From the NCBI GenBank assembly GCA_003165465.1, contig PLUM01000093.1:1-58243 (forward strand): a stretch of DNA of 58,243 bases, written 5' to 3'. Both the position numbers and the translations under genes were made by a program. The notes below the pieces were generated by a model. That model saw nothing but the letters and a program-made list of their open reading frames with translations. It made no database searches and was not told the origin of the DNA. This document shows, one piece after another, positions 12,876 through 14,680 of the stretch. Position 1 is the stretch's first letter. Each line of letters starts with the position of its first letter. The DNA comes from Acidobacteriota bacterium (GTDB lineage: Bacteria > Acidobacteriota > Terriglobia > Acidiferrales > UBA7541).

Positions 12876-12919
12876 TGTGACACCTTCATGACACCATCGT
12901 TAGATTCGCCGCGCTGGGC

Positions 12920-13273
12920 CTAGAGGGTTCCAGCCTCGTGCTTTCCAGCGCAGATCACGCAATGGCGCGCCCAGGGAACGGCTTCCAGGCGCTTTTGCTG
13001 CAGTTCCGCTTCGCACTCGACGCACGTGCCGTACGTGCCGGCCCTGATGCGCGCGAGCGCAGCGTCGACCAGTTGCAGAAGCGACCGGTCCGTATTGGTC
13101 TGCCCGAACAGGAATTCCTTGGTGTAGGAGTTCGCAGCCTTGTCCGCAAGGTCCACGGTGGGATCGTCATCCGCCGTCCGGCCCTCTTCCTCGGTCCGGG
13201 CGATGGTCCTAATCAATTCCTCGCGCCGGGTCTGCAACTTTTTCCTGTAATACTCCAGACGCTTCTTATCCAT
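12920..13273 (-). CDS. DksA/TraR-family C4 zinc-finger protein
   Basis: 117 aa from the ATG at 13273 (MDKKRLEYYRKKL); 11 codons upstream are open but less likely. An N-terminal coiled coil (about 1-70) carries an acidic tip (EGRTADDDPTVDLADKA). A C-terminal zinc finger of the form C-x2-C-x17-C-x2-C (CVECEAELQQ, HCVIC) follows. DksA-type proteins enter the RNA polymerase secondary channel and modulate transcription with ppGpp. Here the tip keeps acidic residues but not the exact DksA DxxDxA form, so it is best called a DksA-like regulator. An IS1-like element sits just upstream and may have displaced its promoter. Confidence 0.88.
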   Translation of the reverse strand: MDKKRLEYYRKKLQTRREELIRTIARTEEEGRTADDDPTVDLADKAANSYTKEFLFGQTNTDRSLLQLVDAALARIRAGTYGTCVECEAELQQKRLEAVPWARHCVICAGKHEAGTL

Positions 13274-13355
13274 AGTCGGGCCCCACTGTTCACTCAAGTA
13301 ATGCATTTACAAAGGGGTGATTGTAGGCCCGCTCCTCGCAACTGTCAAGGAAGGC

Positions 13356-13363
13356 CGGGAATT
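13356..13363 (+). repeat. 8-bp target-site duplication, left copy
   Basis: CGGGAATT directly abuts the left terminal repeat of the IS1-like element. The identical octamer abuts the right end at 14410-14417. Confidence 0.9.
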
Positions 13364-13381
13364 GGTAGTGACTCATTTTGA
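13364..13381 (+). repeat. left terminal inverted repeat (18 bp)
   Basis: GGTAGTGACTCATTTTGA; an exact inverted match to 14392-14409. Confidence 0.93.
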
Positions 13382-13399
13382 AAAGGATAGGAAAATGCG

Positions 13400-13882
13400 C
13401 TATTTCTGGCCGTATGGAGTAACAAGATCAGCCACAAAAAAATCCTTTGCTGTGGCTGTCTTGATGATCGGAGCATTGGGATTGACAGCAGGAGGCTTTT
13501 GGTTTTGGAGCATTGCCTGTAAATACGCGACGGTCACAGCAGTATTGGCGGCAGCACCGTATAGGTTCAACCGAATTTTGCCAGAAAACTTGGGATTGAC
13601 GAGACGCACAGGGCCTCCCCCATATGATAATTCGACATTTGTAAATGTGCAGTCGTCACATGCAAATCCATCTAAGGGTTGTTGTCCATTAGCGATGCCA
13701 ACTCCCTTGTTAAGGCCTCCTGTGAGTGGACGTACAACTGGTGCAAATGAGGGATTAGTAGCGACGAATCCCCCGTTAGGGGGCTCCTGTGCGGAAGTGG
13801 ATGTATGGCTACCAGAGAGCGCCAGAAACGCAGTGATAACTCCTAGCACAAACGACACCAACGCGGTCGTAACTTTGGACAT
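13400..13882 (-). CDS. secreted hypothetical protein, cargo of the IS1-like element
   Basis: 160 aa starting at ATG 13882 with a near-perfect GAAGGAGG ribosome-binding site. N-terminal signal peptide (ALVSFVLGVITAFLALSG, cleavage near TSAQ-E), then a Gly/Asn-rich mature protein with two close cysteines (DGFACDDCTFTNVELSYGG) that may form a disulfide or bind metal. GC content is lower and codon use looser than in neighbouring genes. It lies wholly between the left and inner 18-bp repeats, in the opposite direction to the transposase relic. The family is not recognised. The longer plus-strand frame over the same DNA lacks any gene-like feature. Confidence 0.75.
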   Translation of the reverse strand: MSKVTTALVSFVLGVITAFLALSGSHTSTSAQEPPNGGFVATNPSFAPVVRPLTGGLNKGVGIANGQQPLDGFACDDCTFTNVELSYGGGPVRLVNPKFSGKIRLNLYGAAANTAVTVAYLQAMLQNQKPPAVNPNAPIIKTATAKDFFVADLVTPYGQK

Positions 13883-13961
13883 AACGCCTCCTTCGGAAGA
13901 CTTTCGAGGGGATTGTGCAATATGGATATATCACTATGGCAATCCACCAAGCAAGCAATTA

Positions 13962-13979
13962 GGTAGTGACTCATTTTGA
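13962..13979 (+). repeat. internal copy of the 18-bp terminal repeat
   Basis: Exact copy of 13364-13381 in the same orientation. The bases before it (AGCAATTA) do not match the duplication CGGGAATT, so this inner copy was not the end used in the latest insertion. Confidence 0.92.
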
Positions 13980-14013
13980 CGGTAACGGGAAGTGACGGGG
14001 AATCGTGGGAAGC

Positions 14014-14214
14014 ATGCGGATGAGCATGCGGCGCTTTACCCGCTTAACAAACGCCTACAGCAAGAAAGTTGAGAATCATGTGGCAGCCGTGGCCCTTCAT
14101 TACATGTATTACAACTTCTGTCGGGTACACTAGTCCCTGCGGGTCACGCCAGGGATGGAAGCTTGAATTACAGACCATGTTTGGGATATAGAGCAAATCG
14201 CAAACCTTCTCTGA
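14014..14214 (+). pseudogene. C-terminal remnant of an IS1-family transposase
   Basis: In one frame: MRMSMRRFTRLTNAYSKKV, then ALHYMYYNFCRVH, stop TAG (14131), SLRVTPGMEA, stop TGA (14164), ITDHVWDIEQIANLL, TGA (14212). This matches the C-terminal pattern of IS1-type DDE transposases as I know it (MRRFTRLTNAFSKK, YNFCRVHKTLRVTPAMEA). The N-terminal and catalytic parts are gone: the inner 18-bp repeat lies only about 35 bp before the first recognisable residues. Two in-frame stops within the remnant make it non-functional. Confidence 0.82.
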
Positions 14215-14229
14215 AGGAGGAAGACCCAT

Positions 14230-14400
14230 ATGGATAGGGTTTTCGATGTCTTAGAGCGCATCCGGGCACTATGGAAACAACTAGGAGAACTTCGGCCAGG
14301 AACCCATGAGTATGAAGCACTCATGGACCGAATTCGCGCAAGGTCGGAAGAGTATCACGCGCTGATCAACGTCCCTAAAAAACCTGGAAAATCAAAATGA
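14230..14400 (+). CDS. 56-aa helical passenger protein of the IS1-like element
   Basis: ATG at 14230 preceded by a strong GAAGGAGGA site (14213-14221) that overlaps the stop of the transposase remnant; same reading frame as that remnant. The protein is charged and helical (MDRVFDVLERIRALWKQLG, then HEYEALMDRIRARSEEYHAL) with a basic tail KKPGKSK. The frame is intact although the transposase before it is broken. Its TGA stop is formed by bases of the right terminal repeat. It may be an accessory (DNA-binding or regulatory) protein of this IS group, or a host-retained small gene. Function unknown. Confidence 0.7.
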   Translation: MDRVFDVLERIRALWKQLGELRPGTHEYEALMDRIRARSEEYHALINVPKKPGKSK

Positions 14401-14409
14401 GTCACTACC
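14392..14409 (-). repeat. right terminal inverted repeat (18 bp)
   Basis: TCAAAATGAGTCACTACC, the exact complement of the left end; it includes the stop codon of the 56-aa gene. Confidence 0.93.
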
Positions 14410-14417
14410 CGGGAATT
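14410..14417 (+). repeat. 8-bp target-site duplication, right copy
   Basis: CGGGAATT, identical to 13356-13363. Joining the flanks restores GGCCGGGAATTTCTCGC as the presumed empty site. Confidence 0.9.
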
Positions 14418-14501
14418 TCTCGCAGGAATGACTCAGCGCGAAATTCCCCATCGATATCTTTGCACCGAACGCGACCTAACCGCACCACCGCGTTCCCCGG
14501 A

Positions 14502-14521
14502 GCGCCGGCATCTTGCCGGCA
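14502..14521. repeat. family-D half palindrome (GCCGGCATCTTGCCGGC)
   Basis: CGCCGGCATCTTGCCGGCAG. The same core forms a two-arm element at 33705-33771. Confidence 0.8.
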
Positions 14522-14680
14522 GGTTTTGCGATTGAAGATGAGACGTGGAGCCACCATAACCCCAGCGTGACCAATCCGGTAAGAATGCCCGCCACATTGC
14601 AAATGATTCCAGTACAATGTCGGGTCACGAAGCATAGCCTGAGCTAAGCGTCGGCGAATTGAGCGCGTAGGGGAGGAAGA

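Follow-up and report, generated by a model that had tools for sequence, protein, structure and literature searches.

IS1 serves as a model for a minimal insertion sequence (IS). In its classical form it has two overlapping frames joined by a frameshift, and across the IS1 family the inverted ends start with GGT and the target duplications measure 8 to 9 bp. Some long members of the family are listed in ISfinder, and passengers in IS1 relatives may already be recorded. MIC231 has ends of the IS231 type, not the IS1 type, and the transposase family of Tn3-family transposons differs from that of IS1-type elements.

Insertion sequence copies with passenger genes are described as transporter ISs in passages of PMC3129680 and PMC9330008, through which the concept is credited to Siguier, Gagnevin and Chandler (2009); a passage of PMC3129680 also cites, for these elements, a study of the IS1595 family and of its relationship with IS1. 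Mobile insertion cassettes (De Palmenaer 2004) are treated in a passage of PMC3129680, and Tn3-family transposons with toxin-antitoxin passengers are the subject of PMC7157771. Nothing like the IS1-type lineage studied here is described in the passages of PMC6563490 and PMC7371123 considered, and none of the titles listed in searches of the open literature dealt with IS1-type elements that carry passengers in these bacteria.

Here we analyzed a window of 58,243 nucleotides from an Acidobacteriota genome that contains a 1,046-bp unit bounded by IS1-type ends. This unit is very probably an inserted, non-autonomous IS1-type element that carries the gene of a protein predicted to be exported and would be mobile only through a related transposase acting in trans; because no more than a fragment of its own transposase is left, it would need such a relative to move. 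The 25 relatives that we delimited resemble transporter ISs in combining a single IS-type transposase and IS ends with passengers unrelated to transposition, and differ from them in belonging to an IS1-type lineage, in having passengers in 25 out of 25 elements and in carrying, in 14, a small gene inside one end. Like a mobile insertion cassette, a related cassette in genome G032 lacks a transposase gene and has a passenger enclosed by IS ends; the window unit fits this class in function, yet it still contains part of a transposase along with an inner end. The likeness to the Tn3 family lies in stability or defence-like passengers in transposons, and none of the passengers scanned in these elements was recognized as a resolvase. 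With the IS1 family the lineage has in common the DDE_Tnp_IS1 domain and 8-bp duplications, whereas its transposase is encoded by one continuous frame of ∼277 aa and scores 59 bits against an NCBIfam cut-off of 100. Transporter ISs and mobile insertion cassettes are established types, to which this lineage, with its layout and cargo, adds a variant.

Structure and insertion site of the unit

The unit extends from position 13364 to 14409 and is bounded by perfect 18-bp inverted ends, the left one (GGTAGTGACTCATTTTGA, 13364 to 13381, plus strand) being 100% complementary to the right one (14392 to 14409, minus strand). Outside these ends is an 8-bp direct repeat, CGGGAATT, with copies at 13356 to 13363 and 14410 to 14417 (no strand assigned). 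A longer direct repeat, CCGGGAATT, can be read at 13355 to 13363 and 14409 to 14417, and since its first C falls within the right end, the duplication proper is 8 bp. The repeat search also located a second, direct copy of the 18-mer inside the unit (13962 to 13979, plus strand, 100% identical), which we take as the end of a truncated IS. Together with the right end it delimits a perfect-ended stretch of 448 bp (13962 to 14409) that has no duplication, its flanks being unequal (AGCAATTA versus CGGGAATT). The outer pair fits the duplication and is therefore taken as the pair used in the last movement. The perfect ends, the duplication and the length of 1,046 bp given in an initial annotation of the window are borne out by the repeat search, and its view that the outer ends and not the inner pair were used last agrees with the unequal inner flanks.

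In Markov-shuffled windows, exact inverted 14-mers at a spacing of 100 to 3000 bp occur 1.86 times per window, and the real window holds several other inverted 14-mer pairs besides the ends of the unit; an 18-mer pair that is perfect and flanked by an 8-bp duplication goes far beyond the shuffled-window expectation. The G+C content is 48 to 50% in the unit, 61 to 62% in the flanks and 59% in the whole window, and the drop spans the entire unit. The host assembly, a 4.6-Mb draft (89% complete, 6.9% contamination), holds a single copy of the unit and 19 sites within 3 mismatches of the 18-mer, the unit's three counted, compared to 1 in the control.

To the right of the inner end lies the transposase remnant (14011 to 14214, plus strand), which comprises the last ∼68 residues and is 76% identical to residues 208 to 275 of a full-length relative. 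Three stop codons fall in the matched stretch, the last of them near the natural end. Among the charged residues shared by at least 24 of the 25 relatives' transposases are D66, D138 and E203, the predicted catalytic triad, and all three are absent from the remnant. Only fragments of transposases of this type are present in the host assembly (on contigs C103, C18 and C20), so the source of the transposase was not seen. A 56-aa ORF taken from the ORF list comes right after the remnant (14230 to 14400, plus strand) and has a GGAGG-type ribosome site in front; no relatives of it were found in the 25 delimited elements or the fetched loci. A 34-bp match to this ORF in G075 was dropped because it sits in an apparent helicase gene.

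The DksA-like gene that the initial annotation had placed beside the unit was confirmed at 12920 to 13306 (minus strand; PF01258, 39 bits) and reads away from the unit. The gene and its upstream DNA (12900 to 13363) are present in four of the five other congeneric genomes at 78 to 85% identity, with the match ending at 13352 to 13356, the edge of the duplication, and none of these four dksA loci has an end-like site (up to 4 mismatches). The cyclase gene of the right flank has orthologue-level matches (79 to 84%) in G002 to G005 and only a 66% relative in G001. The same annotation had proposed a search for an empty site joining 13355 to 14418. Searching relatives with both flanks did not find it; the site is unreadable because, wherever a relative has both the dksA and the cyclase flank, the two are on separate contigs, and the intergenic DNA between the two genes has diverged in relatives. 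What supports the insertion is the duplication together with the absence of the unit in relatives, and no clean empty site was recovered.

A palindrome with 13-base arms at 14411 to 14448 overlaps the target and opens the right flank, so the element may have entered a hairpin. Farther right, at 14495 to 14532, is a REP-like hairpin motif, gcgccggcatcttgccggc. Elsewhere in the host genome (G000), this motif or a variant of it fills short MITE-like pairs with IS1-type ends, the motif itself at C114:23226-23386, C40:42422-42581 and C13:27081-27252 and variants at C110:136418-136577 and C20:104222-104347. Six MITE-like pairs of 126 to 172 bp in this genome are bounded by similar ends, with an exact 8-bp duplication (TGAGCGTC) in one, seven of eight duplicated bases in four and six of eight in one, where one duplication is a run of T and one pair spans Ns. 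They suggest that a transposase using such ends has been at work in the lineage.

The cargo gene and its cassettes

Between the outer left end and the inner 18-mer, the ORF list gives a gene at 13400 to 13882 (minus strand) that encodes a 160-aa protein with a hydrophobic N-terminus and an invariant A31-Q32 at a signal-peptidase-like site, recognized by eye. The initial annotation had described a signal-peptide gene of low G+C content here, and export of the cargo protein is indeed predicted; the N-terminus is the sole basis for predicting an envelope or exported role. In the AlphaFold model (mean pLDDT of 75.6), residues 61 to 130 reach values of 88 to 93 and form short repeated strands. Since a Foldseek search of the PDB gave no match at an E value of ≤0.001 (best, 0.51), the fold of this core is described only as short beta-helix-like, as predicted by the model. 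The protein has no match in Pfam, NCBIfam or PADLOC. Upstream of the start, the region is conserved in two other genomes, with 83% identity in G077 over 13802 to 13936 and 72% in G021 over 13827 to 13942. The stretch at 13883 to 13936 (minus strand), overlapped by a partial palindrome at 13916 to 13941, is a predicted promoter or operator, as judged from this conservation and the palindrome.

A protein search found the cargo in 10 of 300 genomes, six of them at an E value of 1.3e-10 or better and one more at 3e-9. A search of metagenome proteins returned 19 sequences, the window's own and 18 others that are 38 to 70% identical to it, and these relatives have the hydrophobic N-terminus and the invariant A31-Q32. 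No relative was found in a named-genome collection scanned with six exact cargo peptides. A wider profile search gave matches in 56 of 399 genomes, which are not counted as cargo cassettes, most of the listed matches covering a core of ∼75 residues only. Apart from those in G032 and G048, the fetched profile matches are not enclosed by an IS1-type end pair; at L065, a 215-bp pair of such ends adjoins the match and does not enclose it.

The cassette in G032, which belongs to another genus, is 693 bp long, carries the same cargo family without a transposase and is flanked by a perfect 8-bp duplication of its own, CGAAATCG. Its two IS1-type ends are mismatched at 2 positions, and the cargo lies directly inside them without any IS copy; in the window, by comparison, the transposase is reduced to a broken remnant. 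Because the same cargo family stands here between IS1-type ends with a different duplication, the cargo is judged to be mobile, in line with the claim of the initial annotation that an IS1-type element had mobilized it. A decayed cassette of 616 bp in G048 has both ends, a broken cargo gene and no duplication. IS1-type ends thus enclose the cargo at three of the seven stronger loci (the window, G032 and G048), and none were seen around the cargo of G021, G077, G181 and G135, which means either that the cargo occurs outside such ends as well or that decay has affected the ends at these loci. The distance from the cargo stop codon to the end is 36 bp in the window, 39 bp in G032 and 42 bp in G048, and the window and G032 have TAGCGCATTT in common from the stop codon onward. 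This common sequence and the similar spacing suggest that the linkage of cargo and end dates back to a common ancestor, though the window and G032 proteins are only 40% identical.

At another cargo locus, L174 (G077:C92, 2180 to 3960), a cargo relative without IS1-type ends adjoins an ORF that is SIR2-like by eye, and repeated GTGGACACC motifs lie between small genes; this is perhaps another kind of cassette.

IS1-type relatives and their passengers

A transposase of this type was found in 95 of 201 related genomes, and 40 loci with a near-full-length copy were fetched among the matches listed. Two of the transposases, L003 and L009, were scanned, and for both the NCBIfam IS1 model NF033558 gives the highest score, 59.2 and 52.4 bits, under its cut-off of 100; the IS1595 model gives 22.4 bits for L003. 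With Pfam DDE_Tnp_IS1 (PF03400; cut-off, 24.1), L003 reaches 26.5 bits and L009 falls just below at 22.1. The initial annotation had called the element in the window IS1-like, which the Pfam score of a full-length relative of its remnant upholds, and transposases of this kind are named 'IS1 family transposase' by their sources. One of them, from G006, a genome of the same family as the window host, is identical to a protein labelled as coming from an Acidobacteria bacterium, which points to an acidobacterial host. The relatives with a listed frame have a single open frame of 273 to 324 aa and not the two frames of IS1, and GGT starts with duplications in the range of 8 to 9 bp, as in IS1, are found at 25 of the 40 loci, all with perfect 8-bp repeats. 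As L003 passes PF03400 and the NF033558 cut-off is missed, we file these elements as a divergent, IS1-like lineage.

To delimit elements, a script looked for inverted 18-mers starting with GG, with up to 5 mismatches, that enclose the transposase within 7 kb, and for a duplication of 8 to 9 bp with up to 1 mismatch; no minimum element length was set. Such ends enclose the transposase at 25 of the 40 loci, and the duplication is 8 bp and perfect in every case; with the right flank reversed as a control, 1 locus of 40 gave an end pair. The 15 loci without a pair are no evidence of plain ISs because in 8 cases a contig end is no more than 700 bp away. The delimited elements measure 1,852 to 5,278 bp (median, 2,511 bp), and their transposase gene takes up ∼0.83 kb, so all 25 carry extra genes. 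An intact transposase with passengers inside one end pair and a duplication, the make-up of a transporter IS, is therefore present at these 25 loci, whereas the transposase of the window unit is broken. The initial annotation had held passenger carriage to be rare in IS1 relatives; in this lineage the opposite was found, all 25 delimited elements exceeding 1.85 kb.

The annotation had also expected an autonomous parent in the form of a compact IS1-type element with the same ends. Elements with the window's exact 18-mer at both ends and an intact-looking transposase do exist, L132 and L133, the latter from the same genus as the window host, and L130 has the 18-mer with one mismatch at one end and again an intact-looking transposase. 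Judged by their sequences, these three are the best candidates for autonomous relatives. No compact parent was found, since passenger carriage is common in the lineage.

Many of the elements have a small inward-reading gene at one end, then passengers, and a co-directional transposase that often abuts the other end. A small protein ending in GGLKGG...ARA...IA.KAA.ARW is encoded in 15 of the 25, possibly an accessory DNA-binding factor, and 14 of the 15 genes lie 14 to 75 bp from one end, read inward and are on the strand of the transposase (L133, L135, L137-L140, L142, L148, L149, L151, L153, L162, L164 and L165). A proteasome-like (Ntn-hydrolase) passenger, defined as a BLAST cluster, is present in eight elements (L135, L137, L138, L142, L143, L151, L154 and L165), in five of which it passes the PF00227 cut-off. 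Other passengers include Fic proteins, a methylase with an under-cut-off Mrr match, an MmeI-like type IIG enzyme, an AAA ATPase, HTH proteins with PD-Lambda-2_B matches, and Bro-N, SocA/Panacea and DUF3800 proteins.

Taking the longest non-transposase ORF of each element as the passenger sample, at least 8 of 25 have a PADLOC match at an E value of ≤1e-20, a lower bound because 13 of the 25 were individually scanned and the tally of all 25 lists 25 of 37 families. The control consists of the 45 longest ORFs in equal-sized flanks and is a soft one, as some of these may be spurious; it gave 1 to 3 matches of 45, the range arising from 3 hits in the family tally that are spread over one, two or three proteins. 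The excess of passengers over flanks has a one-sided Fisher p of 0.0008 to 0.008, with PADLOC names standing for model matches and not for tests of defence.

Two further loci have reduced transposases. L011 (G103:C669, 478 to 3016) spans 2,539 bp, has perfect ends and the duplication GCCAGCCG, and surrounds a C-terminal transposase remnant (residues 208 to 276); one of its passengers has an under-cut-off DUF3800 match, and another ORF is proteasome-like by eye, with no Pfam match. Transposase loss with retained passengers is thus not unique to the window. L020 (G096:C296, 80 to 667) is a 588-bp element whose ends match at 17 of 18 positions, one end being identical to that of the window, with 7 of 8 duplicated bases; it keeps the transposase C-terminus (residues 185 to 277) and the downstream DNA to the second end. 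From its sequence it is likely an internally deleted IS, a parallel of the inner part of the window unit.

Origin of the unit and the biology of the lineage

We infer that the unit arose when a cargo cassette like that of G032 was joined to a decayed, internally deleted IS copy like the 588-bp element of G096. In this fusion the promoter-side end of the cassette would have been lost and replaced by that of the IS. A transposase supplied in trans by an intact relative, such as the 2.3- to 2.7-kb elements with the same 18-mer, would then have used the two outer ends of the fused unit together. The fusion is favored by the inner end, which is unusual: an internal copy of the element's own end (up to 3 mismatches) was found in none of the 25 delimited elements. 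This absence argues against the unit having arisen by deletion from a single larger element in which cargo, internal end, transposase and ORF were already combined, as do the presence of the window's cargo in none of these 25 relatives and its standing alone as a cassette in G032. A deletion origin would agree with the passengers that all 25 relatives carry on one or both sides of the transposase and with the low G+C content throughout the unit, and we regard it as unlikely.

Two other origins would dispense with both the fusion and the larger element. Had the left one of two IS1-type copies in a composite transposon been reduced to its end, the two direct-orientation ends and one inverted end seen here would be expected; the two IS copies flanking cargo that define such a transposon are, however, not present, as DNA of the cargo side begins 18 bp in from the left end and no transposase match lies to the left of 13962 or of the cargo, while in G032 the cargo is directly inside two ends without an IS copy. 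A composite origin is accordingly very unlikely in our view. Insertion of the IS by itself (13962 to 14409) beside an unrelated left 18-mer and cargo appears scarcely credible. The inner pair is perfect-ended on its own and G096 has an internally deleted IS of like make-up, but the duplication is absent at the inner pair and perfect at the outer one, the G+C drop covers the whole unit, and G032 has the same cargo family between such ends with its own duplication and a nearly equal 3'-end spacing.

Beyond the fusion origin of the unit, we tentatively propose, as possible rather than probable, that the lineage found in this class of bacteria carries passengers as a rule and in a fixed layout (a small inward accessory gene at one end, passengers that can be exchanged, and a co-directional transposase), that it is specialized in shuttling phage-defence and related genes and also yields transposase-free cassettes and MITEs, and that the exported-protein gene of the window is a long-term cassette passenger with an envelope-based protective role. 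A widespread IS1-type lineage with passengers in every delimited copy and recurrent defence-type cargo would blur the boundary between insertion sequence and transposon, and would point to a route by which defence and other small genes travel among these bacteria. The window unit shows a further step, a cargo cassette without a transposase of its own that has kept perfect ends.
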